A stretch of 64,000 bases of DNA from an uncultured Clostridia bacterium (lineage in GTDB: Bacteria; Bacillota; Clostridia; Christensenellales; Borkfalkiaceae), in assembly GCA_947175325.1 (NCBI GenBank), contig CAMWME010000003.1, positions 62,001 to 126,000 on the forward strand. The letters run 5' to 3'. Below the pieces are notes generated by a model. That model did not search any database. It saw nothing but the letters and a program-made list of their open reading frames with translations, and was not told the DNA's origin. The first letter of the stretch is position 1. Each line of letters starts with the position of its first letter. Both the position numbers and the translations under genes were made by a program. Positions 10,536 through 43,551 of the stretch are shown here, in pieces.

Positions 10536-10571
10536 AAAACAACCGCGAGGCGAACGCCTTGCGGTTGTTTT
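10536..10571. terminator. Bidirectional terminator between the DegV gene and the ten-gene operon
   Basis: A long hairpin, AAAACAACCGC (10536-10546) with GCGGTTGTTTT (10561-10571), has A and T runs on both sides and so works in either direction. It sits 10 bases from the last stop codon (10581) of the large minus-strand operon. Confidence 0.85.
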
Positions 10572-10580: not shown

Positions 10581-13500
10581 TTAAAAATTAGGCAACTTGT
10601 CTATTGCTTCTGCGGCTGCCATAATTTGCGTAGGACTTGCCGTGTACACTCCCTCTACCGTTCCGTTCACGGTTAAATCGAAGGCGTCCTCCGTTGCCAA
10701 GGTTAAGGCACCTCTGCCGGCATCGTTCAGATATTCGCAAATTCTGTAACGGACTATATCCGACTTCAACAATTCCTCAAACGTTTCGGGGTTATCCTTG
10801 TATTTGAGAATTTGTTCCGTTTTGTTGAAAACGGGAACCTCAAACTCGGTATTGTTCTCTTCGGAGCCTCTTAAAATTTCCAAGGCGCTTGCAAGATATT
10901 CGAGCTGCTCGGCGGAGATAACCGAAGTATAACCGCCCGCTATGCTGTGCGTTTTCCTTACGTCCTCCACCTTCTTGGCGTTGCCTTCAGATACGGCAAG
11001 CACGCCGCCCGCCGTCTTGTTAAGCTGGATAAGCTGGAAGGTTATTCTTGCGCGGATAATTTCGCTTTCGAAGATTGCCTCGCGTTTAGCTTTATCGGGA
11101 ATGGATATTGCCTTATCGTCGGTCATGTTTTCTAAGGCTTCCATATCCTTCAAGCCGTATGCAAGGAAAGCGTTCACCGCAAGGCTTAATTCCTCCGCTT
11201 CGATATACTGCTTGCCGTCGACGGTTTCGACAACCGTATCGGGAATGATAATGCCCGGGTGGTCGATTATCTTATTCGTTATGCTTGCAACTAAGATATA
11301 GGACTTGGTCTCGCCGTTATCGTAGAGATAATCGCTCACCTCTTCAAGGTTGATTTTGCCGCCGTCGAGGTCGCCGCAAACGACTAAAATACTTTCGATT
11401 TCACTCTTCTTATAAACTTTGAAGTTTTCTTCGTAAGCTAAGGGGTGGTCGCAAATATCTGCGTTATCGGCGATAACCTTTTGGATAGATTTGGTCATTA
11501 TGCCCTTTACTATCGTTGAGGCGTAAATAGTATCGAGATTGTCTTTGTTCAATTTATCCTTTAAGTTGTCTACCGTAAACTCGTCGTTGAACGAGGTTAT
11601 TTCAAGCGCGTTTGCCGCGCCCGAAAGGGCTTGAAGCTCTTCGAACCTGTAATATCCGTCAAGCTTGACGCGGTTTATAACGAAGCCGTCGATAATATCC
11701 TTATCTTTATTCTCGCCCAATAACACGGCGTCCACTTCGTCCGTGATTTTACTGCGGAAAATTACCGATTCGTAGAATACGCGAAGCTTGGTTCTGCGCT
11801 CGCTTTCCTCTTCGACGTCGCGGTCAACATCCGCCTCCTCGTTTAATTGAAGAAGCAGCTCCCCGATTTTACCGTCGATAAAATTGTCTTCGAGCGTGAA
11901 GTCGTCGCCCGCGTCTTTAAGCCCTAACAGCTCGCTAAGCGCCTCTATTAAAGCGGGAAGCTCTTTCGTCCACGGGTTGGTTGAGTCGTAGTTTTCAAGC
12001 TCGGACTTCGAGCCCATATTCTTCACGTCGTAAGGCGCGGGGATAATTTCCGCAAGCTTATCGTCTTGGACGATGGTTGCAACTAACGACGCGGGGATAA
12101 TCTTGCTGCCTTCGAGCAAAGATTTATCGTTTGCGATTTTAACGAGTATGTTTTCGACGGTGAAATCCTTATCCAAGCCGAGTTTTGCAATTTCGCCGAA
12201 TACCGAGATAAGCTCGTTCTTTTTGATTAGATACGGGATTTTGTCTTCCCGTAAAGGCTGGCGGGAATTTTGAGGGACTACGAGCGCGAAGTCGTCGCCC
12301 ACATTTGCCCCGTCATAAAGAATATACTTTGAAACGGTGTAGTGCAAAACGCTTGAGGAGAAGAACGCTTCAAGTTCGTCCTCTTCCATCTTGGTGATTT
12401 TCTCTAATACGCTTGACGACTTGAAATCGCCGCTGTTAAGAATAAGGCCCGCAATACTGAACTTGGTATAGCGCAATGCGTCAAGCAAGTATAAAAGCTC
12501 GCCGCGCTTGCCGTCGACCGTTATCCAGCCGTCGATGTTGCCGTCAATGGCTGCGGGAATGGTGATAACATCCAAGCCGCCGCCGCTTTTCAGCTTTTCG
12601 TTGAACAGCTGTGCAACGGTGCCTTCGAAAATTCTGTTCTTTTCTACGAGGTCGTAGAAGTCGTCGTTATCAATTAGGAAGCCGTCGATTTCCTTTTCCC
12701 ATTCCGTGCTGTCGCCGACGAAGGGCATAACGAAGTCAACGAGCACGGACATATTGTCCAAAAGCCCTTTGAGCTGGTCTTCCGTAATGAGGTTTACGAA
12801 CTCTCCGTCCACTTTTTCGCACGCGGATTCGGGTACGTAGAAGGTGTTGCCCTCCACCTCGATAAGCTCTATGGAAATTACCGAGCGGAGAATTACCGAC
12901 TTGGTGAGATAATCCGAAAGGGTTTTTTGTTTATCGTCTTTCTTTTCGACTGCCTCGGCAAGAATATTTAAAACGTCTTCGATGGAAGCGCCGCCCTCTG
13001 AGTTCATAAGCGCGTCCAAAACCTTGGCGTTGTCGCCGCTGAAAAGATGCTTGACGCCGTACAGTAGCTGGTAGGTTTCTCCGTAAGAAACGACTTTACC
13101 GTCCTTATCGTAGGTGTTGCTGAACACTATATTTTCGGGGATATAGGTATTCGGCGAAAGACCCAAAAGGGCGTTTGAAATGGTCCTATAAACGAAGTTG
13201 GTTGAAAGCGCACGACCGAGCACCTTGCTTTTTATAAGCAGCTCGCAGATATTGTCGTATGCGGTCATATTTTCTTTATAGTGCTCGTCGTTTTGGTCAA
13301 ACAGCTTTTTAACCATATCGAGCGCGCTTACCGCTGCCTCGCCGTCCTCTTCGCCGTCCTCAGACTCGCCGTCGGTTGCGCTCATATTGTTGTACAAAAC
13401 CATAGTATCGTCAACTGCGGCGAGAAGGCTGTGGATTTCGTCAATCCAGTCGATGTCTTCCTCTCTAATCTCGGAATATCTTACGCCGTCCTTGCCTTCC

Positions 13501-15221
13501 TCGGTGAGGTACAAGTTTTCAAACAGACAGTACATTCTGGATAAGACGGGGTTGAACTCCGCCTTCCTTTCACTGCTTAGAATGGAAAGCTTTTCGATTT
13601 CGGGAACTATGCGTTTGACGAGCTCTATCGTGTCGCCCGTTTCCTCGTTGGCAAGCAAAGACAACACGACGTTTAAAACGAGCTTTACGTCCTTTTTGGT
13701 GATAATGTGGTTGACGGTGAGGTAAGGGCGGATATCGCTTCCTTCCGCCTCCGTCTTGCCGGTTTCCGCCATCAAGTCGCGCTCGTCGGGGATATTTTCG
13801 GTCAAGAAGCCCTTCTTGAAGATAAGCTTTATAAGCTCCTTTTCGCCGTCGCCTATCGCGTCCTTGGTGAACTCGATTTCGTCGATATTTGCAACGATGG
13901 TATTTACAAACGCCATTGAAAGGTTGATTAAATAGGTTTGCGCGTTGAACGCGTCGATAAGCGAATCGAATTCCTCCCTAAACCCCGAACGCGTCATAAT
14001 CTCCACGACGGTATCAAACGCGCCGTCGGATACATCGCCGCTAACGATAGCGTTGATTTCGTCGGGGCCGTACTTCAATAAGAGGTCGAAGGTGTCGCGC
14101 GCGAAACCCGTCAAGGTGGAAAGCTCTTCTCTGAATTTGACGTTTTCGGATATGCCGAATTCTTCGTCGTTGAGCTCGCCCGAGAATACGAGGTCAGCCG
14201 CAAACAGATAGTAAGGCGTGTCGGTTGCGTCCGTCATTGCGTTTAGAATTTTGAAGATGCCTTGCGCGCCGTAGCTTTCGACGGAGCGGTAAATCTCATA
14301 CAAGAAGTTAACGTCTTCGTTGCCGAAGTCGTGCTCTTCGAGCTTGCCTTCACCCTTGCCGCCCGCGACTACGTAGAACGCGCTGCCGAGGAAGGATATG
14401 CACAAAAGTCCCGTTGCGATGCCGCGGACTAAACCTACTATACCGCCGCCGAGCCAGTGCTTTTTGTAGTTTTTGTCGGTTTTGCCGTTTATAAACTCTA
14501 ACTGCCTATTCTTCCTATATTTGCGCTGTGAGTAGCACAAGACGTAGACGATATAGAGGATAAAGTCTATAAAGAAGAACAAAAGACAAGATATCGTGCC
14601 GAAGATTATGCGGTAAGCCATATCCACGATGGTGTAGACATACGGAGAAAGACCGTCGAAACCCGCGCCGGGAACGGCTACGATATACGCCGCAAGCACT
14701 TCTTTTAAGGTGGAACAGCTTTCGGGAACGCCCAGCATATTTTGCAAAGCGTTTTCGCCGCCGAGCCAGTTAACGAATTTTAACGCGCCCTCGTCCACTT
14801 CCTTTACGTAGACCGTAATGAAGAAGAAGGCAATGCACACCGCGCCCGCGCAAGCCGCGTGAAGGGTTAAAATCAAGCTCTTTCTCAGTCCCCTTCTCAT
14901 ACCCCTAAGTACGGCGATAAGCACGCCGACGGAGAATAAAATCGTGGGGCCCCAGCTTATTGCAAAGTTGATAAGCTGCAATACGGCTTCGTTACCGCCC
15001 GTGGCTGCCGCCATTGCCGCTTGCACGCCGAGGTAAACGATATACGCGGTAGGTATTAAGCCGACGAGGATATAGATTAGTACTCGGAAGAATTTCCGCT
15101 TTACGCCCTTTAAGACAATTATGAATACCACGAGGAGAATGATTGCACCGAAAACGCCCAGCATTATCCAAGGCGGCGTGAAATTAACTAAGCCGCATAA
15201 CGCTGTAAAAACAGAATTCAT
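10581..15221 (-). CDS. Six-helix CvpA-like membrane protein with giant repeat-bearing outer region
   Basis: This 1546-residue protein has six predicted membrane helices within the first about 305 residues. Basic loops (KGVKRKFFR, RGMRRGLRK, SQRKYRKNRQ) put the C-terminal about 1240 residues outside by the positive-inside rule. RGMRRGLRKSLILTLHAAC and GGIVGLVRGIATGLLCI recall CvpA-type membrane proteins; this is a weak resemblance. The last about 750 residues hold a degenerate repeat of roughly 90-100 residues, each opening with an S-x-I/V-[hydrophobic]-R-like motif: KSVILRSVIS, ESVIFRSKIT, ESEIIRARIT, KSDIVRYRIC. I know no family for it. The start is the ATG at 15221 behind a perfect AAGGAGG. 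It is the last gene of the ten-gene operon. Function unknown; likely an envelope anchor or scaffold. Confidence 0.8.
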   Translation of the reverse strand: MNSVFTALCGLVNFTPPWIMLGVFGAIILLVVFIIVLKGVKRKFFRVLIYILVGLIPTAYIVYLGVQAAMAAATGGNEAVLQLINFAISWGPTILFSVGVLIAVLRGMRRGLRKSLILTLHAACAGAVCIAFFFITVYVKEVDEGALKFVNWLGGENALQNMLGVPESCSTLKEVLAAYIVAVPGAGFDGLSPYVYTIVDMAYRIIFGTISCLLFFFIDFILYIVYVLCYSQRKYRKNRQLEFINGKTDKNYKKHWLGGGIVGLVRGIATGLLCISFLGSAFYVVAGGKGEGKLEEHDFGNEDVNFLYEIYRSVESYGAQGIFKILNAMTDATDTPYYLFAADLVFSGELNDEEFGISENVKFREELSTLTGFARDTFDLLLKYGPDEINAIVSGDVSDGAFDTVVEIMTRSGFREEFDSLIDAFNAQTYLINLSMAFVNTIVANIDEIEFTKDAIGDGEKELIKLIFKKGFLTENIPDERDLMAETGKTEAEGSDIRPYLTVNHIITKKDVKLVLNVVLSLLANEETGDTIELVKRIVPEIEKLSILSSERKAEFNPVLSRMYCLFENLYLTEEGKDGVRYSEIREEDIDWIDEIHSLLAAVDDTMVLYNNMSATDGESEDGEEDGEAAVSALDMVKKLFDQNDEHYKENMTAYDNICELLIKSKVLGRALSTNFVYRTISNALLGLSPNTYIPENIVFSNTYDKDGKVVSYGETYQLLYGVKHLFSGDNAKVLDALMNSEGGASIEDVLNILAEAVEKKDDKQKTLSDYLTKSVILRSVISIELIEVEGNTFYVPESACEKVDGEFVNLITEDQLKGLLDNMSVLVDFVMPFVGDSTEWEKEIDGFLIDNDDFYDLVEKNRIFEGTVAQLFNEKLKSGGGLDVITIPAAIDGNIDGWITVDGKRGELLYLLDALRYTKFSIAGLILNSGDFKSSSVLEKITKMEEDELEAFFSSSVLHYTVSKYILYDGANVGDDFALVVPQNSRQPLREDKIPYLIKKNELISVFGEIAKLGLDKDFTVENILVKIANDKSLLEGSKIIPASLVATIVQDDKLAEIIPAPYDVKNMGSKSELENYDSTNPWTKELPALIEALSELLGLKDAGDDFTLEDNFIDGKIGELLLQLNEEADVDRDVEEESERRTKLRVFYESVIFRSKITDEVDAVLLGENKDKDIIDGFVINRVKLDGYYRFEELQALSGAANALEITSFNDEFTVDNLKDKLNKDNLDTIYASTIVKGIMTKSIQKVIADNADICDHPLAYEENFKVYKKSEIESILVVCGDLDGGKINLEEVSDYLYDNGETKSYILVASITNKIIDHPGIIIPDTVVETVDGKQYIEAEELSLAVNAFLAYGLKDMEALENMTDDKAISIPDKAKREAIFESEIIRARITFQLIQLNKTAGGVLAVSEGNAKKVEDVRKTHSIAGGYTSVISAEQLEYLASALEILRGSEENNTEFEVPVFNKTEQILKYKDNPETFEELLKSDIVRYRICEYLNDAGRGALTLATEDAFDLTVNGTVEGVYTASPTQIMAAAEAIDKLPNF

Positions 15222-15254
15222 ATCAATCACCTCCTTTTAAGATTTTTTATGGTT

Positions 15255-17288
15255 TTAAGATACGCTATATACTACTGCGTTGGGATAATTTTCAGTAAAG
15301 TCTGACGGCAAGTTGGGTATATAGACCGTAACAAAAGGATACTCTGACACGCTTTCGCTACCAAAAACGAAATCGTATAAATAATCTACGGAACAATCTT
15401 CTGCGTGGATTTCAATACTTTGAAGCGCAGTCGCCGCTGACGAAATATAGCCGTATCCGACCAAAGTTGCCGTTGTGATGACAAGGTATTGAGTATACTC
15501 GTACGACTTATTAAAATCGCAATAAGACACGTCAAAATTTTCCAGATAAACGTAGACGTTTGTAAGGCTTTCACAGCCCGTGCCTATCGTTCCCTCGCCG
15601 TACGTAACGCCTTGGGGCAAAGATAACGATTCAACAATATTATTGCCGTCACCGAGAATATTCGTGCCGCACGTTTCAAAGCCTTCTGCAACGACGATAT
15701 TATATGCATTTAAATCCTTGAACGCTTCGTCGGGAATATTGAACTGCCCCGTACACGTAAGCGTTAAGACTTGTAAGGTGCGGGTTATATTATACAAGTT
15801 GATTACTTTGTCGTCTTCATAACAAGGAACCGTAAGCTCAGTCAACCCACCGAAATTGTCCAAATCAATTAATTCGCCTACGTCGGCATGCTCTTCAATA
15901 ACGAGCGCATTGACGCCCGTAAAAGCTTGCATAACGTTGGGGGTAAGCAAGGAATCGCTCCATACTTTCAGATAATAAATATTACCTAATTGTAAATACG
16001 CGGTTGAGCTTATTCCGATTACTTCAAACGGTATTTCCAAGCTTTGAGTCGCGGGGTTGACCGTGATAATTTCGCCGTCAACCGTTTCGTAGTCCTTAGT
16101 CCACTTATACTCGTAGCCCTCCACGTTCTTGTCTTGAAGGTATCCGTATTCGTAGCTTTGGGCGGGGTCGTATTTAAATTCGGGCTCGGGTTTAGGTTCG
16201 GGCTTGGGTTCGGGCTTAGTGGCGATTACCAAGTTGAGGTCTGCGGGCGCTTTGCCGCCGAAAAGCTCGTCTTCGCTGTCGGCGCCGTTTTTGCCGATGG
16301 TAAGATTTTTAACGCCGGTACAGCCGTTTAAGCTGTATTTTAAAAGCGTTGCGTCGGGGAGGTTGACCGTTTCGAGCGCGGTGCAGTTTTCAAACGCGTA
16401 GCCCATAACGGTTGCTTCCGCCACCGAGGTTACCGTTTTAAGCTGTGCACAGCCGCCGAACGCGTAGCCTTCGATATAGAGATAGGTTGAGCTGAACTTT
16501 ACCGTTTCGATATCCGAATTTTCAAAAGCCCTTTCCTTTACCCTTACCACTTCGTAGCCGTTGACTTCGGCGGGAACGGTAAGGTTCTTTTCTTCGCCGT
16601 CGTAGCCCGTAACGGCTACGGTTTTAACTTCGCCGTTCTCTTGAATTTCGTAATACACGTCGTCAATGACGAACGCGGTAGAATTAGTATTGAATAAATA
16701 CACCGAAACGCCTATGCCAGCTACCGCGAGAATACAAGTTATAGCGTTGAATATTGCGGGGAACTTTGCAATGTTTTTGCGGGTTGCGTTCTTTGCCGTA
16801 AACGGCAGTTTGCCCTTTCGCCTTGCGGGGGCGGGTGCGGGCTGCGCCTTGACGCTTACGGGTGCGGCGGGAATATATCTTTTAGCCGAATCCTCGTCGC
16901 GGGCGTAATGTTCGAACTTGTAGCTGTTGTCTAAGAACTGCCCTTCCTTCCATATAAACCTATCGAATGCGGCTTGAACGAGGCGTACCGACAGAGTTTT
17001 GCAAGCGTAGTTTACTTTTAATTTTGCGTTGGGTACGAAGGATTGAACGGGTTTTGCAAGGAATTTGTTGTAGATAACCATCGACTTTTCGACGAGGTTA
17101 TTATCAATATCGTACTGGCTGACTTCGAACTCCATTCCAAGTAACTGTTGGTTTACGTTGTTTGCGAACTTGAAAACGACGAATTTTTGTTCCGCGCGCT
17201 CGTCCTCGAAAACGATGTACTCCTCTAAGTTGACTACGCAGTCCTCCGAGGCGTACTTGATTTTTTCTATGTTATTATAGGAACTCAT
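15255..17288 (-). CDS. Membrane-anchored BspA-like (LRR_5) protein
   Basis: The 677-residue protein has four parts: a cytoplasmic beta-rich N-terminal domain (about 1-135), a basic Pro/Ala linker (KAQPAPAPARRKGK), one membrane helix at about 180-200 (FNAITCILAVAGIGVSVYLF), and an outer region. The outer region begins with a DDVYYEI / VTVPAEVNGYEVVRV-like module and then BspA-type leucine-rich repeats: VKERAFENSDIETVKF, YAFGGCAQLKTV, YAFENCTALETVNLPDA. A KPEPKPEPKPEP spacer separates these from a second LRR-like part with Cys-containing repeats. LRR_5 proteins typically mediate binding at the cell surface. The start is the ATG at 17288 with GGAGGTG upstream, inside the end of the preceding gene. 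Part of the ten-gene operon. Confidence 0.8.
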   Translation of the reverse strand: MSSYNNIEKIKYASEDCVVNLEEYIVFEDERAEQKFVVFKFANNVNQQLLGMEFEVSQYDIDNNLVEKSMVIYNKFLAKPVQSFVPNAKLKVNYACKTLSVRLVQAAFDRFIWKEGQFLDNSYKFEHYARDEDSAKRYIPAAPVSVKAQPAPAPARRKGKLPFTAKNATRKNIAKFPAIFNAITCILAVAGIGVSVYLFNTNSTAFVIDDVYYEIQENGEVKTVAVTGYDGEEKNLTVPAEVNGYEVVRVKERAFENSDIETVKFSSTYLYIEGYAFGGCAQLKTVTSVAEATVMGYAFENCTALETVNLPDATLLKYSLNGCTGVKNLTIGKNGADSEDELFGGKAPADLNLVIATKPEPKPEPKPEPEFKYDPAQSYEYGYLQDKNVEGYEYKWTKDYETVDGEIITVNPATQSLEIPFEVIGISSTAYLQLGNIYYLKVWSDSLLTPNVMQAFTGVNALVIEEHADVGELIDLDNFGGLTELTVPCYEDDKVINLYNITRTLQVLTLTCTGQFNIPDEAFKDLNAYNIVVAEGFETCGTNILGDGNNIVESLSLPQGVTYGEGTIGTGCESLTNVYVYLENFDVSYCDFNKSYEYTQYLVITTATLVGYGYISSAATALQSIEIHAEDCSVDYLYDFVFGSESVSEYPFVTVYIPNLPSDFTENYPNAVVYSVS

Positions 17289-17988
17289 ATTCAAGCGCAC
17301 CTCCCGTTCTTATTTTTGCGTTTCTTCTTCTGAAACAGAGCACGGTTATAAGATAGCTTATAAGGGCGAGAAGGAAGCTTCCCGCTATAAGCCCGTAGTT
17401 TAAGTAGTTAATGAGGATTAGTTTCGTATAGATGTCGCCCAAAACTTCGATAAAGGCGTGGCGCACTGCAAAAAGGAAGGTGAAAAACACCAAGCTTTTC
17501 AAGGCAGCGTGAATGCGGACCTTGCTCATGGGGAGAGGTCTTATCACGTTGGAGTTGACGCAAATGCCGTCCGCCGTGCCGATTACGACGTTGACGAAGG
17601 CGCAACTCTTTTTAAGCGCGATTACCTTGGAGCTGTCGCCCGTGTCGCGGTGGGTTACGTTTATTACGCCTATTACCCTTTTAAAGCGGGAATACTGTAC
17701 GACGAAATAAGAAATATCTTGAAAGCTGCGCGCATAATTGCACACGAGATACTTATCGTACAGCGTTTTGCAGATAACGTATTTTTTAATGAAATTTTTG
17801 GTTTCACCCGAGGTGAAATAGATAGAATTTTTTGAGTTTGCCGTTTTAACTTCTTTTAGAAGTTCGTCCTTGGTGTATTCGTGGTAATAGCCGTTTTTAA
17901 GCAGCCTTAAAGCCAAAACGAGTATTATGCCGAGGATACACACTAAGATTGAGGCAAGACACAAAATTCTCCATACAAACATTGTCAT
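17275..17988 (-). CDS. Small membrane protein of unknown function
   Basis: This 237-residue protein has an N-terminal membrane helix (about 8-30, ILCLASILVCILGIILVLAL) and two C-terminal helices (about 165-190 and 200-225) with a basic RRRN end. Between them lies a region of about 130 residues with ETKNFIKKYVICKTLYDKYL and RFKRVIGVINVTHR; I do not recognise a family. The start is the ATG at 17988, six bases after GAGG; a TTG four codons earlier overlaps that site. The 3' end overlaps the LRR gene by 14 bases, so the two are translationally linked within the ten-gene operon. It probably assembles with the other membrane components, but that rests only on position. Confidence 0.7.
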   Translation of the reverse strand: MTMFVWRILCLASILVCILGIILVLALRLLKNGYYHEYTKDELLKEVKTANSKNSIYFTSGETKNFIKKYVICKTLYDKYLVCNYARSFQDISYFVVQYSRFKRVIGVINVTHRDTGDSSKVIALKKSCAFVNVVIGTADGICVNSNVIRPLPMSKVRIHAALKSLVFFTFLFAVRHAFIEVLGDIYTKLILINYLNYGLIAGSFLLALISYLITVLCFRRRNAKIRTGGALEYEFL

Positions 17989-18016
17989 AACTGTCCTCAA
18001 TTAGCAGTAAAAAGGA

Positions 18017-19699: not shown

Positions 19700-19732
19700 A
19701 ATAAATTTCCTCCGAATTGCCATATTGGCGTG

Positions 19733-32308: not shown

Positions 32309-32372
32309 TATCAAACCTTATAAATTGCAGTTACTTTGTGATTTTATTTTTCTGTTGGTGCCTATATTCGCC

Positions 32373-34619: not shown

Positions 34620-34648
34620 GGGTAGTCCCTCACAATCTTAGGGGTTAA

Positions 34649-35770
34649 TTATACGTTTTGTTCAATAAGTCTTATCGTTTCTTTGCATAAGGGCAATTTG
34701 TCTTCGCCGAAGAGTTCGTCTAAGTACGCGCACACTCCGTCCGCCATTTGTTTGACGTGTACGGGGTTTTTGCTCTCTAACTTTCTGAACACCTTCCTTG
34801 CGAGGATATCGTCCAAAGCTTCAAGCTCCGTTCCCCCGCATGCCACAAGCACCGGCACGTAACAGCGGATTTGCTTCATAATACGGTTACCGAAAGTGAT
34901 GTGGAAGGTCTTTATCATATACTCGTCGAGTTTCTTAATTCGGCGTAAGTTTCTGTCGCTGAGGTCGTACTCCCTCTGTGCCTTTGCCATAAGCTCTTCA
35001 AGGTGAGTTGAAGATATTTTCTTGTTACTGCCTTGCGCCTCGAACGGCGTTGCCTTCTTATCGAGGTTTAATACCATTGCACGGTCGTAAACCTTATCCG
35101 ATATCGAGAACGTACTGTCGTCGTTGTTTGCAGTGCCTACGAACCACATATTGGTGGGTAGTCTTAACTTACCGTTATGCTGTAAAAGTTTGGGGTCGTC
35201 TTCCCATCTGTCCGCTACTACGTCAAGGTTTCGTCCGTCGGGGTTGGGGATTTCAAGTAAGGATAGGAACTCTGCGAAGTAGTACTCTACCCTCGCTATG
35301 TTCATTTCGTCGAGGACGGTTATGTATATCTCTTCGTTGTTGTTCGCCTCGTACATTTTGTACAAAAGCGTGGTTTCGTTAAATCTCTTGGTAAATTCGT
35401 TGTAATAACCGACGAGGTCCGTACGCTCCTTCCACATAGGTTGGATAGGTACGACTACCGTCTTGTTTTCAAGGAACTCGCCGAAGGCGTATGCTAATGA
35501 GGTTTTACCGGTACCCGACATACCTTGTAAAATGATAAGCTTAGTTACTGCAAGTGCGCCGATAAATCTTCTTATATCCTCGATATCGTAGTAAAGCTTT
35601 AACTTGCCCGCCGAGAAGTTTCTGAATTCTTCGCACAGCTCTTTAAGCGTTATATCGTCGTCGTAGTCGGGGCGGGTGTAGTTCTCGTACTCCTTGTCTA
35701 TCTCGGTAAGCATATAAAAGCGCGAACCGCCCTCGTTTACTTCCTCGTCCTCGGCCGCTTCCGTCGTTGC
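34649..35770 (-). repeat. Duplicated AAA+ module, copy A
   Basis: About 1.1 kb repeated at 38015-39135. Long blocks are identical base for base: about 34670-35058 except the edges, and about 35310-35530. They alternate with blocks (about 35150-35300 and 35530-35620) that carry many silent differences. The encoded protein is nearly unchanged throughout. Confidence 0.95.
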
Positions 35771-36148
35771 CGCTGCGCTTGCACGCGCGGGGGCGTAATT
35801 AATATTAGGAAAGTCGACGTTGGCAAGCTTGGGAACGTCGCGGCTCTGCACAGCCGGCTTTTCCCTTTCGAGCTTTTTGAAGTTTACGTCAAAGTAATCG
35901 GGCGTGATAAGGTCGGTGTTGTCGCGCTTGGAAAAGGTTACGCGGATTAATAAAACGAGCAATAACGGCAGCAGTACCACGAGCACGATATACAGATATT
36001 TTATGCCCGTTGAAATTGCGGGGAACTTGCCGCTGTAAATTTGATACTGGCGCACGAGGGCAAAAACGAACAGCACGAAGATACCGATTATGAGAATAAT
36101 CAGTGCAATCAACTTTGCTATTTTGTTGTTGCCGTTGCCCTTTTTCAT
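34649..36148 (-). CDS. Membrane-anchored McrB-like AAA+ ATPase, copy A
   Basis: The 499-residue protein has two N-terminal membrane helices (about 11-33 and 50-70), a linker, and a McrB/MoxR-type AAA+ domain. Walker A is GMSGTGKT (209-216), Walker B is ITVLDEMN (Asp280, Glu281), and sensor 1 lies in WFVGTANNDDSTFSISDKVY (about 335-354), followed by an Arg in DKVYDRA that may be the arginine finger. The DEMNIARVEYYFAEFLSLLE stretch matches the McrB DExNR-type segment. From residue about 128 it is almost identical to the copy at 38015-39487, differing at very few residues, while the N-termini are unrelated. It probably forms a cytoplasmic ring tied to the membrane that hydrolyses ATP or GTP. 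Ribosome site AAGG; part of the ten-gene operon. Confidence 0.9.
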   Translation of the reverse strand: MKKGNGNNKIAKLIALIILIIGIFVLFVFALVRQYQIYSGKFPAISTGIKYLYIVLVVLLPLLLVLLIRVTFSKRDNTDLITPDYFDVNFKKLEREKPAVQSRDVPKLANVDFPNINYAPARASAAATTEAAEDEEVNEGGSRFYMLTEIDKEYENYTRPDYDDDITLKELCEEFRNFSAGKLKLYYDIEDIRRFIGALAVTKLIILQGMSGTGKTSLAYAFGEFLENKTVVVPIQPMWKERTDLVGYYNEFTKRFNETTLLYKMYEANNNEEIYITVLDEMNIARVEYYFAEFLSLLEIPNPDGRNLDVVADRWEDDPKLLQHNGKLRLPTNMWFVGTANNDDSTFSISDKVYDRAMVLNLDKKATPFEAQGSNKKISSTHLEELMAKAQREYDLSDRNLRRIKKLDEYMIKTFHITFGNRIMKQIRCYVPVLVACGGTELEALDDILARKVFRKLESKNPVHVKQMADGVCAYLDELFGEDKLPLCKETIRLIEQNV

Positions 36149-36157
36149 ATAACGCCT

Positions 36158-38008
36158 TTACTTCTTTTTCTTGTCTTTCTTTTCTTGTTTTGTCCAAAGA
36201 ATGGTTTTTCTGATTTCCTTCTTGGTGAACTCCCACTGGGTTTTGAAGAATCTGTGGTAAGCCATATATTCTTCTTCGAGCTCAATGAACCTATCGCGGG
36301 AGGTATAGTCGCTACTCGGCGTAAGCTTACCTTGCTGTGCGCGGATACCGTCCAGCTCGCCGCGGATTAACGCGTTTTCGTCACGCAATTTCTTTAATTC
36401 TATGCGCTGGGTCTTTTCAAGCTTTTCGATATCCTTGTTGAAGCCCTCTTCGGCTTGCTGTATCTTGACCGCGCACTCGTCTATAACGCGCTGTCTTGCC
36501 GCGTCCAAATCGTTAAGCTGCCTATCAAGCTCGACGTTCTTTTCCTCGAAGTCCGAAACGGTTTGCTCTAAGGTTGCGTTTAAATCGTCTATCTGGTCGG
36601 TGAGCTCTGCAACGCGCGTTTCGTGTTCTTCGATGGTCTCGGCAAGCTCGTCTGCAAAGTCGGCTTTAATCTGCGCGATTTCGCCGTCGTGCTCCTCGTT
36701 CAGCTCTGCAATTTCGCGGATATGTTCGTCCTTTATAGCCGCCATATCCTCTATGTATTTTTGGTTGAGCTCGACGATTTCGCGCTCTTTTTCTTCCACG
36801 GTTTCGCGCAAAAGGTCGACTTGCCTATTAAGCTCTTCCTTTTCGCGGTTAATTTCGTCAATCTTTTCGTTGAGCGCAACTACCTCTTGCCTAAGGCTTA
36901 CGAGCTCCTCGCCGTCCTTTTCAAGCTGGCGGTTCCTTTCTTCCAGCAAAACCATGTACTCTTCCATCGTTTTGTTGGATTCCAAGGCGCGCTTTTTCAA
37001 GCGTTTTATGCGCTGAATAAGCTTTTGTTCTTCTTCGTCTTTGAGCCTTCTTTCCTCCGCCTCGTACTCGGCTTCGAGAATGCTTTCGATGTCGTTGCCC
37101 GTCTTGTAGGCAAGGAAGCAAGTTAGGTTTGCCGCCTCCGCAATTTCGTCGGCGATTTTTTCGTTGAAGGGCGCATAGTTGAAAACTACTTCTTCGTAGT
37201 CGAAACCTTGACCCTTGTAGGACGCGATATAGTCGTAAAGCGCAAGCGCGCGCTTGAAGTTGTTGTTCATCTTCAAGACGTTGGTCTTGACTATGGGCGG
37301 CTTAATCATGGGCGCCTTTGCAACTTGCATCATAAGGTCGGTGTTCAAAAGCGCGTTTATTATGCTTTGGCAGTCCTTAATTCTTTGAACTTGCTTTGCG
37401 GATTTTTCGTCGGGCAAGGGGAACGGGTTATCCGTTCTTTCCTCGTAAACTGCGGCTTTAATCTTTAAAGTGCGTTTCTTGGTGACGACTTCCTTGGAAA
37501 TTTCCATATCGCCGACGTACTTTCTTCGAAGGTTTTCAATCTTTTCAAGCCTATACTCTATAAAAGCCTTTATGTAGCAAAGCATCATATAGAGGAAACG
37601 GTTTTCATAGACGGCGTAGTCCGAAAGCTTTTCGACCATGTAAAGCTTATCGGGTACCAGCAAATCGTCCTCTTCCTCGGGCACGTGCGTTATCATATCG
37701 CTGTGCTTGGCAAGGTGCTCTACCGAGTCCTTTGAAATCTTACGCACCTTTTCGATGGGCACGACTTCGCCGTTGGTTCTTATGAACTGACGCTCTTCCC
37801 CGACTGCCTTTTCGACGAAAACCAGCCCTTCTTCAATGGCTTGAATCCAATCTTCTTCGATTTTGCACAAATATTTAGTTGCTTGTAACCTATCTTCGTC
37901 AACGTTGGATTCCGCAAGGGCGCGTCTGTCCTTTTCACAGCCGGTGTTGTCCGCCGTCTGCTTGCGGTATCCTTTGAATGCGCGATAGTAAATATCTAAA
38001 AGTGTCAT
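36158..38008 (-). CDS. Coiled-coil protein with McrC/DUF2357-like ENRF motif
   Basis: This 616-residue soluble protein has a helical N-terminal domain and a long coiled coil. YAVYENRFLYMMLCYI at about 132-147 matches the ENRF helix typical of DUF2357/DUF524 proteins, the McrC-type partners of McrB ATPases. The following RVKTNVLKMNNNFKRALALY-like region (about 240-260) fits the same family. Where McrC and DUF2357 proteins normally carry a PD-(D/E)XK nuclease, this protein instead has an uninterrupted coiled coil from about residue 310 to 575 (heptads such as EKIDEINREKEELNRQ), and I see no nuclease motif. It lies between the two AAA+ genes and may connect their rings to something else. There is no clear Shine-Dalgarno sequence; the start is six bases after the upstream stop, suggesting coupled translation. 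Confidence 0.75.
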   Translation of the reverse strand: MTLLDIYYRAFKGYRKQTADNTGCEKDRRALAESNVDEDRLQATKYLCKIEEDWIQAIEEGLVFVEKAVGEERQFIRTNGEVVPIEKVRKISKDSVEHLAKHSDMITHVPEEEDDLLVPDKLYMVEKLSDYAVYENRFLYMMLCYIKAFIEYRLEKIENLRRKYVGDMEISKEVVTKKRTLKIKAAVYEERTDNPFPLPDEKSAKQVQRIKDCQSIINALLNTDLMMQVAKAPMIKPPIVKTNVLKMNNNFKRALALYDYIASYKGQGFDYEEVVFNYAPFNEKIADEIAEAANLTCFLAYKTGNDIESILEAEYEAEERRLKDEEEQKLIQRIKRLKKRALESNKTMEEYMVLLEERNRQLEKDGEELVSLRQEVVALNEKIDEINREKEELNRQVDLLRETVEEKEREIVELNQKYIEDMAAIKDEHIREIAELNEEHDGEIAQIKADFADELAETIEEHETRVAELTDQIDDLNATLEQTVSDFEEKNVELDRQLNDLDAARQRVIDECAVKIQQAEEGFNKDIEKLEKTQRIELKKLRDENALIRGELDGIRAQQGKLTPSSDYTSRDRFIELEEEYMAYHRFFKTQWEFTKKEIRKTILWTKQEKKDKKKK

Positions 38009-38014
38009 ATCGTT

Positions 38015-39135
38015 TTATACGTTTTGTTCAATCAGTCTTATCGTTTCTTTGCATAAGGGCAATTTGTCTTCGCCGAAGAGTTCGTCTAAGTACGCGCACA
38101 CTCCGTCCGCCATTTGTTTGACGTGTACGGGGTTTTTGCTCTCTAACTTTCTGAACACCTTCCTTGCGAGGATATCGTCCAAAGCTTCAAGCTCCGTTCC
38201 CCCGCATGCCACAAGCACCGGCACGTAACAGCGGATTTGCTTCATAATACGGTTACCGAAAGTGATGTGGAAGGTCTTTATCATATACTCGTCGAGTTTC
38301 TTAATTCGGCGTAAGTTTCTGTCGCTGAGGTCGTACTCCCTCTGTGCCTTTGCCATAAGCTCTTCAAGGTGAGTTGAAGATATTTTCTTGTTACTGCCTT
38401 GCGCCTCGAACGGCGTTGCCTTTTTATCGAGGTTTAATACCATTGCACGGTCGTAAACCTTATCCGAGATAGAGAACGTACTGTCGTCGTTGTTTGCAGT
38501 GCCTACGAACCACATATTCGTGGGAAGTCTTAACTTGCCGTTGTGTTGTAACAGCTTGGGGTCGTCTTCCCATCTGTCTGCAACTACGTCAAGGTTTCGC
38601 CCGTCGGGGTTGGGGATTTCCAATAGCGATAAGAATTCTGCAAAGTAGTACTCTACTCGTGCTATGTTCATTTCGTCGAGAACGGTTACGTATATCTCTT
38701 CGTTGTTGTTCGCCTCGTACATTTTGTACAAAAGCGTGGTTTCGTTAAATCTCTTGGTAAATTCGTTGTAATAACCGACGAGGTCCGTACGCTCCTTCCA
38801 CATAGGTTGGATAGGTACGACTACCGTCTTGTTTTCAAGGAACTCGCCGAAGGCGTATGCTAATGAGGTTTTACCGGTACCCGACATACCTTGCAGAATA
38901 ATCAACTTAGTTACTGCCAAAGCTCCGATAAATCTTCTTATATCTTCGATATCGTAGTACAGTTTTAACTTGCCCGCCGAGAAGTTGCGGAATTCTTCGC
39001 ACAGCTCTTTAAGCGTTATATCGTCGTCGTAGTCGGGGCGGGCGTAGTTCTCGTACTCTTTGTCTATCTCGGTAAGCATATAGAAGCGCGAGCCGCCCTC
39101 GTTCACCTCTTCGTCCTCTGCCGCTTCCGTTGCCT
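38015..39135 (-). repeat. Duplicated AAA+ module, copy B
   Basis: Counterpart of 34649-35770 in the same orientation. The silent-difference blocks are at about 38515-38665 and 38895-38990, with near-perfect identity elsewhere. The pattern fits gene conversion between the copies. Confidence 0.95.
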
Positions 39136-39487
39136 TGCCGCTTCCGACGCGCGCGGGCGTTGCACCGACCGGCATCACGCTGAGCGGCCCGTAGGATACG
39201 CTTCTTTTTACCGCCGCCACGTCTAGGCTGATTTTGTTCATTTTCTTGTCAAGCTCCGCTCTTACGGTTTCAAGCTGCTCGTTCTCGTGAACCTCGTGCC
39301 GCCTTGCGTCGTTATCTTGAATTTCGGCGATGCGGCGTTGTTCGTTTACGATTACGCGGATTACTATCACCAAAATCAATACGAGAATTATTGCGGCGTA
39401 AACTATAAGCGCGATTTTACTTGTTAGCGCGTCCCACACGTTACCGAAAAACTCGGCAAAGGAGAACGCAGATATTAAGTTTAACAT
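38015..39487 (-). CDS. Membrane-anchored McrB-like AAA+ ATPase, copy B
   Basis: The 490-residue protein has one strong N-terminal membrane helix (about 24-47, IALIVYAAIILVLILVIVI), a short coiled region, and the same AAA+ domain as copy A: GMSGTGKT, VTVLDEMN, GTANNDDSTF and DKVYDRA are all present, so it should be active. The only protein changes I see in the shared part are Thr to Ala in NYxRPDYDD and Ile to Val next to Walker B. The different anchors suggest a mixed ring or two rings with different positions. The start at 39487 follows AAGGAG. It lies second in the operon, 18 bases after the GH3-pseudo-AAA gene and six bases before the coiled-coil gene. Confidence 0.9.
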   Translation of the reverse strand: MLNLISAFSFAEFFGNVWDALTSKIALIVYAAIILVLILVIVIRVIVNEQRRIAEIQDNDARRHEVHENEQLETVRAELDKKMNKISLDVAAVKRSVSYGPLSVMPVGATPARVGSGKATEAAEDEEVNEGGSRFYMLTEIDKEYENYARPDYDDDITLKELCEEFRNFSAGKLKLYYDIEDIRRFIGALAVTKLIILQGMSGTGKTSLAYAFGEFLENKTVVVPIQPMWKERTDLVGYYNEFTKRFNETTLLYKMYEANNNEEIYVTVLDEMNIARVEYYFAEFLSLLEIPNPDGRNLDVVADRWEDDPKLLQHNGKLRLPTNMWFVGTANNDDSTFSISDKVYDRAMVLNLDKKATPFEAQGSNKKISSTHLEELMAKAQREYDLSDRNLRRIKKLDEYMIKTFHITFGNRIMKQIRCYVPVLVACGGTELEALDDILARKVFRKLESKNPVHVKQMADGVCAYLDELFGEDKLPLCKETIRLIEQNV

Positions 39488-39505
39488 AAGTTTCTCCTTC
39501 GAGCG

Positions 39506-42500
39506 TTATACGGATTTAGCAAGCGCCCTTTGAATTTTGGTAAGCTCCTCTTCGTTAAACAGCTTTTCGACTATGCCGAATACCGTTTTGTCGCCGCCGT
39601 CTTGCGCGTAGGTTTTGGTAAGCTTCAAAAGCGGAACTATCTTTCCAAGGAAGATATCCGTCACGCACTCCGCCTCGTCACCGCCGCACTCCAAAAGCAC
39701 CGAAGTGAACTTTTCAAGCTGTAAGGTGTTCTTGTTGCCAAGGCGGAATTTTTCGGTTGCACGGATAGTTTCGAAAAGCTCGTCAAGCTTCTTCCAAATC
39801 TTTTCGGGAAGATAGAACGTTTCCCTAGCTTCCTTAACGAGGTCTAAAATCGCGGCTTTGGATATTACGTCCGCCTCCACTTCTTCGGCGGGCTCGTTTT
39901 TGCTTAAAACCAAATCTAGCTGAATTGCCGCGTCCGCAACCTCACGCGGGAACTTGTCGCCCAAGCCTTCCGCGGGGGATAAAATATAGCAGATGTTGTT
40001 GGGAAGAATTATCGAAAGTTCTTCGTTTAGGTTCAAGCTGTGTTCTTCGGTGGGGTGGTTCGCGTAGGTTACGAAGGGCGCAAACCAGCTTAAAACGGTT
40101 TCCGCATTTACCCCGCCGATTACCGCGCCGTAAAGCCTATCGGGAGATTTGGTTGCCGAGTAAACGGTGTTTGCAAAATCAGAAAGCACGTATTTATCGT
40201 CTTGCTGTTTCCATACAAGGTCGGAAAGCGCCTTCCAATTTTCGCCCGCAACTGTCATTTCGCGGCTGTTGAAGTAGCCGTTTAACACCGTCAAGAAGTC
40301 GGGCATAACGTCCGTGTTCTTCGTTGAAACGATAACTATTTTGCTTGCGCCTATCGCGGCAAACAGCGCCCTTACCGAGGTTATATCAACCGTAACTCCG
40401 CGGCTCTGTGCAAAGGCTTGGAAGTTGTTGCAGATTTCGTGGAAGGTAACCTTTTCGGTAATCTCCACTTCCTCGTCCTCTTCAAGCGACAAATCGTAGG
40501 ATTTTTCCTTGGGCGTATCCGCCGCCACCGTTACGGGGAGCTCTTCCTCCTCGGGTTCTTCCTTCACGGGCTCGATATACGTAACCTTTGAAACCTCGTC
40601 AAATTCTTTGACGTTTTCGACTAAGTCCGTAAGCACGTCGTTCACGGGAATATAGTGCTGCTTTTTGCGCTTTTTGGCTATTACTGCCACGTAGGTTATA
40701 AACAGCGCAAGGCATATTGCCGAAAGCCCGCCTATCACGCAGTAGAAAATCAAATCCTTATCCCAAACGATATCGGTAAAGGCAAGCGCCGCCATTACGC
40801 CCTCGTAGTAAAGGGTAACGAGGATAGCAACGAACAGCTTCACGCCGAAGGACAGCTGCTTTTTAGCTTTTCTGACTTCGGGCGGTTCTTGGTTTACGTC
40901 GAACTTAACCGCGGTGCCGTCGCTGTTTTGTACGCTTTGGACGATTTCGCCCTTGTACTCGTCTTTGAAAACGTAATTTGCAAGCGTTATCGACCCGACG
41001 AGCCTGTCGTCAAAATAGTTTTCGGAAATCTTAACGGTGTACTCGCCGCCCTCTATGCGGTAAAGCCCAGACTCGGCATCGTAAATTTTAAAGGTGTTTT
41101 GGTCGAAGGGAATTTCAATGCGCGCGTAGTCGTTTTTCTTCACGTAAACTTTTGCAAAGCCGCGCAGAATTTTATCCTTGAAAATGCTTGACGAGCGGAA
41201 CTTCTGCACGTAGAACTGCGGCACCGCAAAGCCGTCGCTATCGCCCACGTTCTTCACCGTACAGCTTATACCGCGCTCGTTGATTTTAAGGTTCGAATAC
41301 TCGAATTTGGTATAGGAAAGCCCGTAACCGAAGGGATAACGCACCTCGTTACGGGGAATAGTCAAATAGTTTTGGGTGTTGTTAATGTCCATAGGGACGG
41401 TTTGGGTAAGCCGTCCCGACGGGGTTGCCAAGCCCTTGATAATATCAAGCACTGCACGGGCACTACCTTGCCCGCCGCGGTAAGTCAAAAGAACCGCCGC
41501 ACACTTCTGTGCAAAGTTAAAATCTATAATGCCGTCCGACGCCACCACGGCGATAATCTGTACGCCGTTTTTATTCAGCTCGTCGATAAGCGCCAGCTGC
41601 CCTTCGGGCAAAATGTTCGCGCCCTTTTCCGCGCTTAAATATACGATGGCGAGCCCCGCGTCCTTGCCGAGGTCTACGGCGATATCAATTAAATCTTGCC
41701 TTACGCCGTCGCCCTTTGAGTAGCCGCTTGCAAAGCCGGTGGCGTTAATCTCGTAGTTGTTTACCGTGTAGAAGGGCAATCTTTCGGCAGTTGCCTTGCC
41801 GCTGTAAAACTCGGACTGGTAAATATAGTCCTTTGCACTGTCGCCCAAAATAGCAACCTTCGCCGTGCTTGAAAGGGGAAGAACGCCGCTGTTTTTAAGT
41901 AAAACCGTTGACTGCCTTGCCGCCGTTATTGCGAGGGCGTCGTCCGAAATTTCGTCGAAAGCCGCAACGTGGTTGGGGTTAACCGCGGTTTTGGTAGGCA
42001 CGGTTTCTTGCGCGCGCTTACGCATTTCGAGCAGAGCGGAAATAAGCTTGTCGCAAGCCTCGTTTAAAATTTCTTCGTCGAAGATTTCAAGCGACTGACA
42101 GCGTGCGTCAAGCTGGGATAAGGTTATTATTTTCGAACGGTAATCAGCGTACGCCGACCTATACTCGACGGTGAGCTGTTTGAGTTTAGCGATAATTTCC
42201 GCCGTAAAGTCCGCTTTCAAGAATACGAGCGTACAGCCGTTTAAAAAGTATCTGAGCGCCTCGTCGGAACTTTCGGCTACGCCGTAGAAAAGGCAACCCT
42301 CGTCCTCTTGGGCTTTGTAATTTTCAATATTTTCGGGGTTCTTTAAGTAAACCGAGCGGGGCGAAGCTGCGCTTAATATAACGTCTTGCAAATTCTTGAC
42401 GGACTGCTCTTCGCCGCTTTGCGGGATAAATTCTTCAAAGTTAAAAAACTGTCTTGCACGGGAAAGCCCTTTCGCCTTACTGCCGAGGGTTGATGCGGTT

Positions 42501-42826
42501 AAAAAGTAATCTTCGGAAATATTTTCGGCGGAGACGGAATCGGTAACGTTGAAGCAAGCGTATTTTTTGACGGCGGCAACCTCTTCGCCGCGTTTGGAAT
42601 AAACCTCCGTAACTAAGGCGTTATTCCAACAAGACGCAAGCGCCCTATCCGAAGGAAACTGCGTAGCAAAAACGCCCGAGCTGTCCGCCAAGGGATTACG
42701 GGTCAATTTGAATACGGGGAATTCGTAATTTTCGTTAGCCGAATTCTCGTACAGTTTTAAGCTAGTCACCAATTTGACTTTCTGCTCTATTGACATTTTG
42801 AAGATGAGCCGTTCGTTCGCCAACAT
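39506..42826 (-). CDS. GH3-like pseudo-glycosidase fused to a degenerate McrB-like AAA+ domain
   Basis: The 1106-residue protein has a GH3-type N-terminal part (about 10-130: FATQFPSDRALASCWNNAL), a GH3 C-terminal domain (about 300-490: ARQSTVLLKNSGVLPL, VAILGDSA, PSGRLTQTVP) and a GH3-type Fn3 domain (about 495-615: YPFGYGLSYTKFEYSNL). The N-terminal barrel is much shortened and I cannot find the catalytic Asp. Two membrane helices (about 662-685 and 692-718) and KKRKK follow; with no signal peptide, both ends should be cytoplasmic. The last about 310 residues align along their length with the neighbouring AAA+ ATPases, but Walker A has become STKNTDVM and Walker B GAVIGGVN, so it should not hydrolyse nucleotide. 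The ATG at 42826 has GGAGG five bases upstream. First gene of the operon. Confidence 0.85.
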   Translation of the reverse strand: MLANERLIFKMSIEQKVKLVTSLKLYENSANENYEFPVFKLTRNPLADSSGVFATQFPSDRALASCWNNALVTEVYSKRGEEVAAVKKYACFNVTDSVSAENISEDYFLTASTLGSKAKGLSRARQFFNFEEFIPQSGEEQSVKNLQDVILSAASPRSVYLKNPENIENYKAQEDEGCLFYGVAESSDEALRYFLNGCTLVFLKADFTAEIIAKLKQLTVEYRSAYADYRSKIITLSQLDARCQSLEIFDEEILNEACDKLISALLEMRKRAQETVPTKTAVNPNHVAAFDEISDDALAITAARQSTVLLKNSGVLPLSSTAKVAILGDSAKDYIYQSEFYSGKATAERLPFYTVNNYEINATGFASGYSKGDGVRQDLIDIAVDLGKDAGLAIVYLSAEKGANILPEGQLALIDELNKNGVQIIAVVASDGIIDFNFAQKCAAVLLTYRGGQGSARAVLDIIKGLATPSGRLTQTVPMDINNTQNYLTIPRNEVRYPFGYGLSYTKFEYSNLKINERGISCTVKNVGDSDGFAVPQFYVQKFRSSSIFKDKILRGFAKVYVKKNDYARIEIPFDQNTFKIYDAESGLYRIEGGEYTVKISENYFDDRLVGSITLANYVFKDEYKGEIVQSVQNSDGTAVKFDVNQEPPEVRKAKKQLSFGVKLFVAILVTLYYEGVMAALAFTDIVWDKDLIFYCVIGGLSAICLALFITYVAVIAKKRKKQHYIPVNDVLTDLVENVKEFDEVSKVTYIEPVKEEPEEEELPVTVAADTPKEKSYDLSLEEDEEVEITEKVTFHEICNNFQAFAQSRGVTVDITSVRALFAAIGASKIVIVSTKNTDVMPDFLTVLNGYFNSREMTVAGENWKALSDLVWKQQDDKYVLSDFANTVYSATKSPDRLYGAVIGGVNAETVLSWFAPFVTYANHPTEEHSLNLNEELSIILPNNICYILSPAEGLGDKFPREVADAAIQLDLVLSKNEPAEEVEADVISKAAILDLVKEARETFYLPEKIWKKLDELFETIRATEKFRLGNKNTLQLEKFTSVLLECGGDEAECVTDIFLGKIVPLLKLTKTYAQDGGDKTVFGIVEKLFNEEELTKIQRALAKSV

Positions 42827-42918
42827 CTGCGCCTCCATTTTAAAGCGTCGTGCTTTCCTAAATTTTCGCCCGCCGTACCTCGCGCGGGGCGTGTGTATTA
42901 TAATAAACGTGTTTTACT

Positions 42919-42947
42919 ATTATAATAATAAAATATACGCGTGTCAA
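42919..42947 (-). promoter_or_regulatory. Consensus promoter of the ten-gene operon
   Basis: A perfect TTGACA (42942-42947), 17-base spacer and perfect TATAAT (42919-42924) on the minus strand, about 93 bases before the first ATG. I see no other equally good promoter between genes down to 10581. Confidence 0.85.
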
Positions 42948-43065: not shown

Positions 43066-43551
43066 TCAGTGCCCTAAATCGTAATTTATGGCGTCTTTTT
43101 TCTCTTTCAAAACGTACTCTAAAAAGCAATTGACCCCGTCATATATGTCAACGAACGCCTTTTCGAAGTCGCCGGTGTACCACGGGTCGGCCACGTCGCG
43201 AGGGTTAGAAGTGAACGAACAAAGCTTGAAAATTTTGCTGCCGAATTCCCCGCCCGTAAGCCGTAAAATATCGAAAAGGTTGCTTGAATTCATAACGAGA
43301 ATAAAGTCGCTGTTGATTATATCTTTTAAAGAAATTTGCCTTGCGATATGCTCGCCCTCTATTCCGTGCGCCCTTAGCGTGCGCTTTGCGGGCGGGTAGA
43401 TGGGGTTGCCCTCCTCCTCGTCCGAGGTCCCGAAGGATTTTATATCGAAGCTGTTATCTAACCCGCGCTCTTTGACGAGATGCTTTAAAATAAGCTCCGC
43501 CATGGGCGAGCGGCAAATGTTGCCAAGGCATACGAAAGAAACCGTAATCAT
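43066..43551 (-). CDS. Low-molecular-weight protein tyrosine phosphatase
   Basis: The 161-residue protein starts with VSFVCLGNICRSPMAELI, the CX5RS phosphate-binding loop with catalytic Cys and Arg. The general acid loop appears as VADPWYTGDFEKAF. GTSDEEEGNPIYPPAKRTLR and HIARQISLKDIINSDFILVM are typical of the family. It removes phosphate from Tyr residues and in Bacillota often pairs with a BY-kinase that controls polysaccharide export; no such kinase is nearby. It has its own perfect consensus promoter (43583-43611) and terminator, so it is monocistronic. Confidence 0.93.
   Translation of the reverse strand: MITVSFVCLGNICRSPMAELILKHLVKERGLDNSFDIKSFGTSDEEEGNPIYPPAKRTLRAHGIEGEHIARQISLKDIINSDFILVMNSSNLFDILRLTGGEFGSKIFKLCSFTSNPRDVADPWYTGDFEKAFVDIYDGVNCFLEYVLKEKKDAINYDLGH

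Follow-up and report, generated by a model that had tools for sequence, protein, structure and literature searches.

The window is the whole stretch of DNA analysed here (64,000 nucleotides of contig CAMWME010000003.1, from an uncultured Clostridia bacterium of the family Borkfalkiaceae). It carries ten open reading frames (ORFs), all on the minus strand and in a single direction throughout, from 42838 down to 10581. They encode McrB-like and McrC-like proteins, two surface fibre proteins and other membrane proteins. This unit is considered, at about even confidence, to be a membrane-tethered McrB/McrC-derived NTPase machine that would handle the surface fibres. L and G are the handles of loci and of genomes or their contigs.

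Organisation of the unit and its six core genes

The gaps between successive genes, from gene 1 to gene 10, are 18, 6, 9, 29, 58, 9, 16, -26 and 24 bases. A sigma-70 promoter matching the consensus TTGACA-17-TATAAT at 12/12 positions is located directly upstream of gene 1 (42919-42947, minus strand). A terminator hairpin (10536-10571, minus strand; -22.9 kcal/mol, z -5.9) is located right after the last stop. An earlier interpretation made from the letters (the sequence-only reading) had claimed one consensus promoter, short gaps or overlaps and one terminator; all three were recovered, the gaps being of at most 58 bases with one overlap of 26. Strong internal promoters, named by that reading as an argument for a split cluster, were not found: no minus-strand site inside the unit scores above 10/12 (best site, 19341-19314). 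The totals of sites scoring at least 9/12 between 9000 and 46000, both strands included, are not far above those of shuffled sequence (25 against 20.7, standard deviation (sd) 5.0; 23 against 17.7, sd 3.9). What makes the 12/12 promoter informative is mainly its position before gene 1, along with the fact that L083, L084 and L087 have two perfect hexamers at the corresponding place (spacers of 17, 18 and 18 bases). The comparison included 15 loci, the window being one of them; the remaining relatives score 11 (G053), 10 (L085) and 6-9 (the other nine). Two more 12/12 promoters are found on the minus strand, upstream of neighbouring genes (43583-43611 and 45198-45226), and near-perfect promoters seem to be usual in the genome of the window. 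The prediction that the ten genes form one operon is supported by their spacing, the promoter, the terminator and the comparison of genomes.

TM, transmembrane. TM helices and hydropathy peaks were obtained with a hydropathy script. McrB1 (gene 2, 38015-39487) has one TM helix and an NxD-type NTPase domain (AAA_5, 1.5e-7, Pfam). McrB2 (gene 4, 34649-36148) has two TM helices and an NTPase domain near-identical to that of gene 2 (97.0% DNA identity from the P-loop onward). AAA_5 is scored in both proteins, and the P-loop (GMSGTGKT) and the GTANNDDSTF motif are intact in both. A profile of 27 members of the McrB family matches the McrB structures 6hz4, 6ut6 and 7vsr (1.8e-7 to 4.7e-7) and no other structure below 0.1. 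The NNDD of the window proteins, taken alone, can be read as either NxD or NxxD; in the 27-row alignment, N332, D334 and D335 are invariant and position 333 varies, which is the NxD signature; in this branch NxD takes the place of NxxD and usually has D or E next to it.

The DNA identity of McrB1 and McrB2 from the P-loop, counted over 41 loci with two measurable copies, is 97-100% in 20 loci (100% in eight) and 66-84% in the other 21. Copies of different loci diverge much more than copies within the high-identity loci. A single ancient duplication with clean descent was rejected, the tree demanding 28 changes between upstream and downstream copy. Concerted evolution of McrB1 and McrB2 appears to be the simplest reading. 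Metagenome assembly collapse may be behind part of the 100% pairs. It was rejected for the window pair (97.0%) and for that of Anaerocaecibacter muris (98.4%, longest exact run of 182 bases), the copies being not identical.

Gene 3 (36158-38008) encodes a McrC-like DUF2357 region and a long coiled coil, identified from the profile and the relatives. Pfam DUF2357 is found at E <=0.1 in 21 of 26 members of the gene 3 family (best, 9.3e-10) and is not found in the window protein itself. hhalign of the family against ten DUF2357 proteins gives 96.7% and E 3.4e-10 (an eleventh protein, L178, was left out as short). This alignment spans the DUF2357 part only; the coiled coil occupies the place of the McrC nuclease. 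Pfam and NCBIfam found no nuclease domain in the ten products, and PADLOC found none in the nine it was given (all but gene 6). McrB and DUF2357 homology is also what an ordinary type IV (modified-DNA) restriction system would display. Such a system is most improbable here, as the PD-(D/E)xK nuclease was not found and the TM anchors occupy the place of the DNA-reading domain.

For the putative fibre-handling machine, a further ring component is proposed from gene 1 (39506-42838), which encodes a pseudo-GH3 domain, two TM helices and a degenerate McrB-like AAA domain (pseudo-AAA) and has a weaker third hydropathy peak (819-837) that was not counted as a TM helix. The pseudo-AAA matches 316 columns of the McrB profile (probability 100%, E 2e-38), and in this alignment its P-loop, Walker B and NxD residues are all lost. 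A P-loop found by regular expression in the relative L114 was rejected: it is positioned before the AAA part and is not a genuine P-loop. The pseudo-AAA profile has a match in 44 of 57 fibre loci. The GH3 C-terminal domain (PF01915, 2.5e-26) and an Fn3-like domain (4.4e-10) are recognised in gene 1 by Pfam; the N-terminal GH3 model is not. The S-D-W/S-D-Y motif of the N-terminal catalytic GH3 domain marks the nucleophile. It is absent from residues 1-350 of 33 members of the gene 1 family, window included. The GH3 part is read as a pseudo-enzyme and not as an active GH3 glycosidase, because the N-terminal model is unscored and the nucleophile motif is absent. This part is a variable addition, since pseudo-AAA genes of only 311-491 amino acids (aa), too short to include it, are found in L090 and L094 (Anaeroplasmataceae), L105, L147 and the Lachnospiraceae loci L124, L140, L145 and L155.

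The composition given by the sequence-only reading agrees with these data: two active-looking McrB-like proteins and a degenerate one, all three membrane-anchored, a McrC/DUF2357-like coiled-coil protein and no nuclease found among the ten proteins. Its two YDG/MBG fibres were recovered in part. Gene 5 (32373-34619) encodes fibre 1, a YDG-type surface protein with an N-terminal TM anchor (residues 7-25), according to hydropathy and relatives. Gene 6 (19733-32314) encodes fibre 2 (4193 aa), with a predicted cytosolic tail of the YxxYxx[KRA] type and a TM anchor (residues 30-48). It contains 51 YDG/YG-type motifs (regular expression) and has no Pfam or NCBIfam match at 0.01. Among 47 complete fibre proteins of relatives (350-1400 aa), Pfam finds at E 0.01 AgI_II_C2 in 31, YDG in 21, Transglut_core in 18, MBG in 11 and MBG_2 in 5; the two fibres of the window themselves have no significant Pfam match, YDG and MBG included. 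The length of fibre 2 is up to 4,193 aa and is frequently below 1,000. Where two fibres are encoded, YxxYxx[KRA] precedes the TM helix of the second fibre in 42 of 44 loci (missing: L100, L146) and that of the first fibre in 0 of 44. The evidence is this contrast between fibre 2 and fibre 1 and not the bare rate, since the pattern was picked after the output of the hydropathy script had been viewed.

Fibres of 27 of the 57 fibre loci include a transglutaminase-like domain (home-made profile), most with Cys and HxW motifs; the best Pfam Transglut_core score among fibres of relatives is 1.8e-38. Together with the AgI/II-like, YDG and MBG domains, it would suit a contact or colonisation device, in which fibres present enzymatic (transglutaminase-like) or adhesive heads to neighbouring cells or to the mucus of the host and the ring times their display. 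The same profile finds no such domain in the fibres of the window and of its nearest relatives, and no target is indicated. This device, an improbable explanation, overlaps the fibre-handling reading and differs from it chiefly in purpose.

Distribution, insertion site and variable genes

McrB relatives of all types (E <=1e-20) are found in 55 of the 151 genomes of the family. A scan of GTDB contigs gave at least 587 confirmed places, and the best 80 of these led to 77 loci that were read. With the window and five G contigs they make up a set of 83 loci, many of them contig-cut. The loci read number 118 in total, 116 of them distinct (L085 = G075, L114 = G110). The set of 83 includes 41 loci with two McrBs around McrC plus fibres, 7 with fibres and one McrB, 33 with a single McrB in which no fibre was recognised, and 2 in which the same holds but McrB is present twice. 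A separation of the fibres from the AAA+ genes in relatives, which would have counted against the sequence-only reading, is not the rule: fibres are found with McrB on the same strand in 48 of the 83 loci, the remaining 35 being sister arrangements or cut by contig ends.

The core consists of six genes in the order pseudo-AAA, McrB1, McrC/DUF2357-coiled coil, McrB2, fibre 1, fibre 2. It recurs among gut-type bacteria, in Clostridia (including Lachnospiraceae and Oscillospiraceae) and in Anaeroplasmataceae (fibre loci L089, L090, L093 and L094; GC 27-40%). Anaeroplasmataceae are not known to have a cell wall. Fibre loci are also found in Anaerocaecibacter muris strain CLA-AA-M11 (L098) and in Bacilli (L147). 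That the ten genes stay together holds for G075 and G053 (fibre 2 split); elsewhere, it is the six-gene core that stays together and genes 7-10 vary.

The unit lies between DegV (9519-10463) and LMWPc (43066-43551). The interval between them (10464-43065, 32.6 kb) lacks the insert in ten genomes of the same genus. The search for DegV and LMWPc covered 20 genomes, namely G000, 18 more of the genus to which it belongs, and G075 (another genus). The two genes are adjacent in 10 of the 18 same-genus genomes, with stop-to-stop distances of 55, 61, 66, 145, 148, 170, 244, 414, 556 and 1,242 bases, compared with 32,602 in the window. Small foreign-looking ORFs are present in two of these short gaps (G128, G064). 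In the remaining eight and in G075, the two genes are distant, on separate contigs, or one of them has no close match. In G053, which is among the ten, a different contig bears the unit with its gene order unchanged, fibre 2 being two ORFs; the gene on the left flank of this locus has a match on G000 C4 (44% identity). G075 carries all ten genes in order. It has the McrB closest to that of the window (78%; GltX 65%), the same-genus G110 and G116 having 57-59% (GltX 75-77%). No integrase or transposase is found among the ten products. The empty DegV-LMWPc sites, the recurrence of the ten genes and a McrB that does not follow GltX suggest that the unit was acquired horizontally as a single block.

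A signal peptidase gene on the same strand and no more than 12 kb away is found in 0 of 55 fibre loci (some contig-cut) against 39 of 63 other loci. Of these 39, 21 have TasA-like and 9 have EAL/GGDEF-like matches; the profiles are home-made, each started from one protein. Three peptidases were scanned: two pass the NCBIfam cut-off for signal peptidase I, and each of the three has a SipW match that stays under the cut-off of that model. The cyclic di-GMP (c-di-GMP) protein of a sister locus scores as EAL plus GGDEF. Sister operons (L050, L056, L063, L064 and others) encode a TasA-like protein, a signal peptidase, McrB, McrC-coiled coil and a second signal peptidase; some add an EAL/GGDEF protein. 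A third arrangement (L068, L073, L081, L082) includes a signal peptidase, McrB, a 430-475-aa protein, ABC transporter genes and an 810-875-aa protein. The 430-475-aa protein is McrC-like, with a zinc ribbon in some.

Genes 7-10 are, as judged from the relatives, variable additions to the conserved core of six genes. Gene 7 (18017-19723) encodes a DUF975-like protein (2e-5, below the curated cut-off) with six hydropathy peaks and an Ala/Lys/Thr-rich tail; it has relatives in G075 and G053. Its long Ala/Lys/Thr repeat resembles histone H1-like HC2 (4e-4, below the cut-off). Gene 8 (17275-18000) encodes a membrane protein with three hydropathy peaks; relatives are found beside the system in G075, G053, G150, G076, G116, L098, L099 and L104. 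Gene 9 (15255-17300) encodes a TM-anchored LRR_5 protein (TM 177-195; LRR_5 2e-15, Pfam). Gene 10 (10581-15230) encodes a polytopic protein with six hydropathy peaks and a long hydrophilic C-terminal part; it has no Pfam family and, among the G contigs read, its relatives are found solely in G075 and G053. The LRR_5 protein and the three polytopic membrane proteins (genes 7, 8 and 10) noticed at first sight are thus confirmed by Pfam and hydropathy. Upstream of the unit, 46977-49469 encodes a separate 830-aa Big_2 surface protein. A low-GC stretch (52000-61000, 28-37%) encodes a DdmD-like protein (52626-55988) and a UvrD/GajB-like helicase (57343-59667); it is likely a foreign island, perhaps a defence one.

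Comparison with described systems

The sequence-only reading knew no described system of this composition. This needs correction in part, the NxD branch of McrB and a membrane- and pilus-linked group, CoCoPALM, being already in print (PMC11090510; preprint PMC10542128). There, CoCoPALMs are linked to signal peptidases in a short passage, and the fuller account is deferred to a later paper (PMC11090510). No further account under the CoCoPALM name was found in the open-access literature beyond these two publications. Searches of that literature likewise turned up no account of a membrane or surface McrB system, of McrB with DUF2357 and membrane, or of McrB with SipW or TasA. In the passage on CoCoPALMs (PMC11090510), the features shared with the unit are a McrB NTPase of the NxD type joined to a TM segment, a coiled-coil McrC homologue and a link to surface-appendage genes. 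The same passage gives their McrB as fused to an FtsB-like TM and coiled-coil segment; here, the TM segment is present, and FtsB/DivIC is not among the matches listed (25 of 52 Pfam families) for the 27 McrB members. CoCoPALMs, as characterised there, have a signal peptidase family protein, whereas none is found near the 55 fibre loci or among the ten products. The unit further differs by having usually two McrBs plus the pseudo-AAA, and MBG/YDG-type fibres with an N-terminal TM anchor. It is called CoCoPALM-like and not classed as a member because no signal peptidase is found. The fibre variant may be contained in the unpublished CoCoPALM data of the authors of PMC11090510. The fibre-linked unit is regarded as new, within a known but uncharacterised NxD/CoCoPALM kind.

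In the sections of PMC11090510 dealing with them, CoCoNuTs (CnuB/CnuC) share with the unit the NxD motif, coiled coils and McrC-like proteins that are sometimes nuclease-free. They differ by a nuclease in McrC, or a HEPN or other nuclease adjacent; none was found among the ten products. Escherichia coli McrBC, as outlined in the same source, shares the AAA+ and DUF2357 domains; its NxxD GTPase, DNA-binding domain and PD-(D/E)xK nuclease are unlike the window system. Likeness to the TasA/SipW fibre operons of Bacillus exists only via the sister McrB/McrC loci with SipW-like peptidase and TasA-like proteins, Pfam and NCBIfam finding no signal peptidase or TasA among the ten window products. Classical tasA operons are not known to include McrB or McrC.

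Proposed function

McrB1 and McrB2, which share a motor domain but differ in their TM anchors, would together make up an active ring beneath the membrane; the pseudo-AAA protein is a putative further subunit that would not hydrolyse NTP. Gene 3 would plug this ring with its DUF2357 part, as happens in McrBC, and its coiled coil, found in place of the nuclease, would serve as lever or tether. The cytosolic YxxY tail of fibre 2, predicted to be N-in/C-out, and perhaps fibre 1, would be engaged by the ring. NTP hydrolysis would then assemble, position, tension or remove the fibres. The LRR and polytopic proteins would be accessory. Fibre handling is suggested by the combination of a membrane-anchored ring NTPase, a McrC-type plug with a coiled coil and a dedicated tail of fibre 2. 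The same is suggested by the sister sets, in which signal peptidase, TasA-like and c-di-GMP genes bring in surface-fibre or biofilm themes. Reuse of McrBC-like parts at the envelope, proposed by the sequence-only reading, is supported as the likeliest theme; the gliding also proposed found no support. A more detailed version, a new class of NTP-driven fibre machine derived from a restriction motor, is speculative and rather unlikely as a whole: gene conversion would keep the motor domains of the two McrBs identical, one ring with two kinds of anchor would grip the giant fibre by its YxxY tail and move it, and recombination between the ~1.1-kb repeats would loop out McrC and act as a switch.

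Several observations weigh against fibre handling. Three loci (L100, L104, G116) keep McrB and fibres without McrC, and the pseudo-AAA was not found in 13 of the 57 fibre loci (several contig-cut). The TasA-likeness comes from the reading of one N-terminal sequence and from home-made profiles, and neither Pfam nor NCBIfam assigned these proteins to a family. The loci without McrC, and genes 7-10 that vary in presence and position, would suit a McrBC-like system and an adhesin operon whose functions are unrelated and which are co-transcribed or hitchhike. This explanation is very doubtful: the McrB-McrC-McrB-fibre-fibre order is held where McrB is only 43-91% identical to that of the window (best segment), and fibre 2 has a dedicated tail. 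In L100, L104 and G116:C12 (L036), the fibre genes come directly after a McrB1-type anchor plus motor domain. These loci look like loop-outs between the McrB repeats, or assembly collapse with the same appearance.

The other points opposed to fibre handling are those that suit a defence system. The PADLOC defence-candidate profile PDC-M26A matches McrB1 and McrB2 (3.7e-44 and 4.4e-46). The distribution is patchy and does not track the host marker: in 14 fibre-type genomes, the McrB and GltX identities to the window are not correlated (Spearman -0.26, p 0.37), with query ranges that differ and, in 5 of the 14, a GltX match of 38-44% (four partial) that is possibly a paralogue. In an envelope-level anti-phage system, fibres would sense or block phage at the surface, the McrB ring would receive the signal across the membrane, and depolarisation or arrest of the cell would fall to a polytopic protein. 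NxD relatives are predicted to be antiviral in the part of PMC11090510 devoted to them. No nuclease or known effector was found by Pfam, NCBIfam and PADLOC. For flanking proteins (115/256), no PADLOC family exceeds three among the matches listed (25 of 48 families); for more distant proteins (52/59), none exceeds one. Several of these matches are generic helicases or ATPases, and this small test gave no sign of a defence island. The sister sets adjoin signal-peptidase and c-di-GMP genes. An anti-phage role is judged possible but somewhat unlikely; the envelope defence device of the sequence-only reading keeps the PDC-M26A match and the patchiness and has no positive genomic context.

McrBC proteins are known as restriction motors. 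Under the fibre-handling reading, the unit would be a recurrent McrBC branch, with no nuclease found, that is wired to surface fibres in Clostridia and Anaeroplasmataceae, and the role of the NxD/CoCoPALM branch would become directly testable. The named carrier strain, Anaerocaecibacter muris CLA-AA-M11, should make testing practical. If the reading is true, an NTP-driven mode of control would be added to those of surface fibres.
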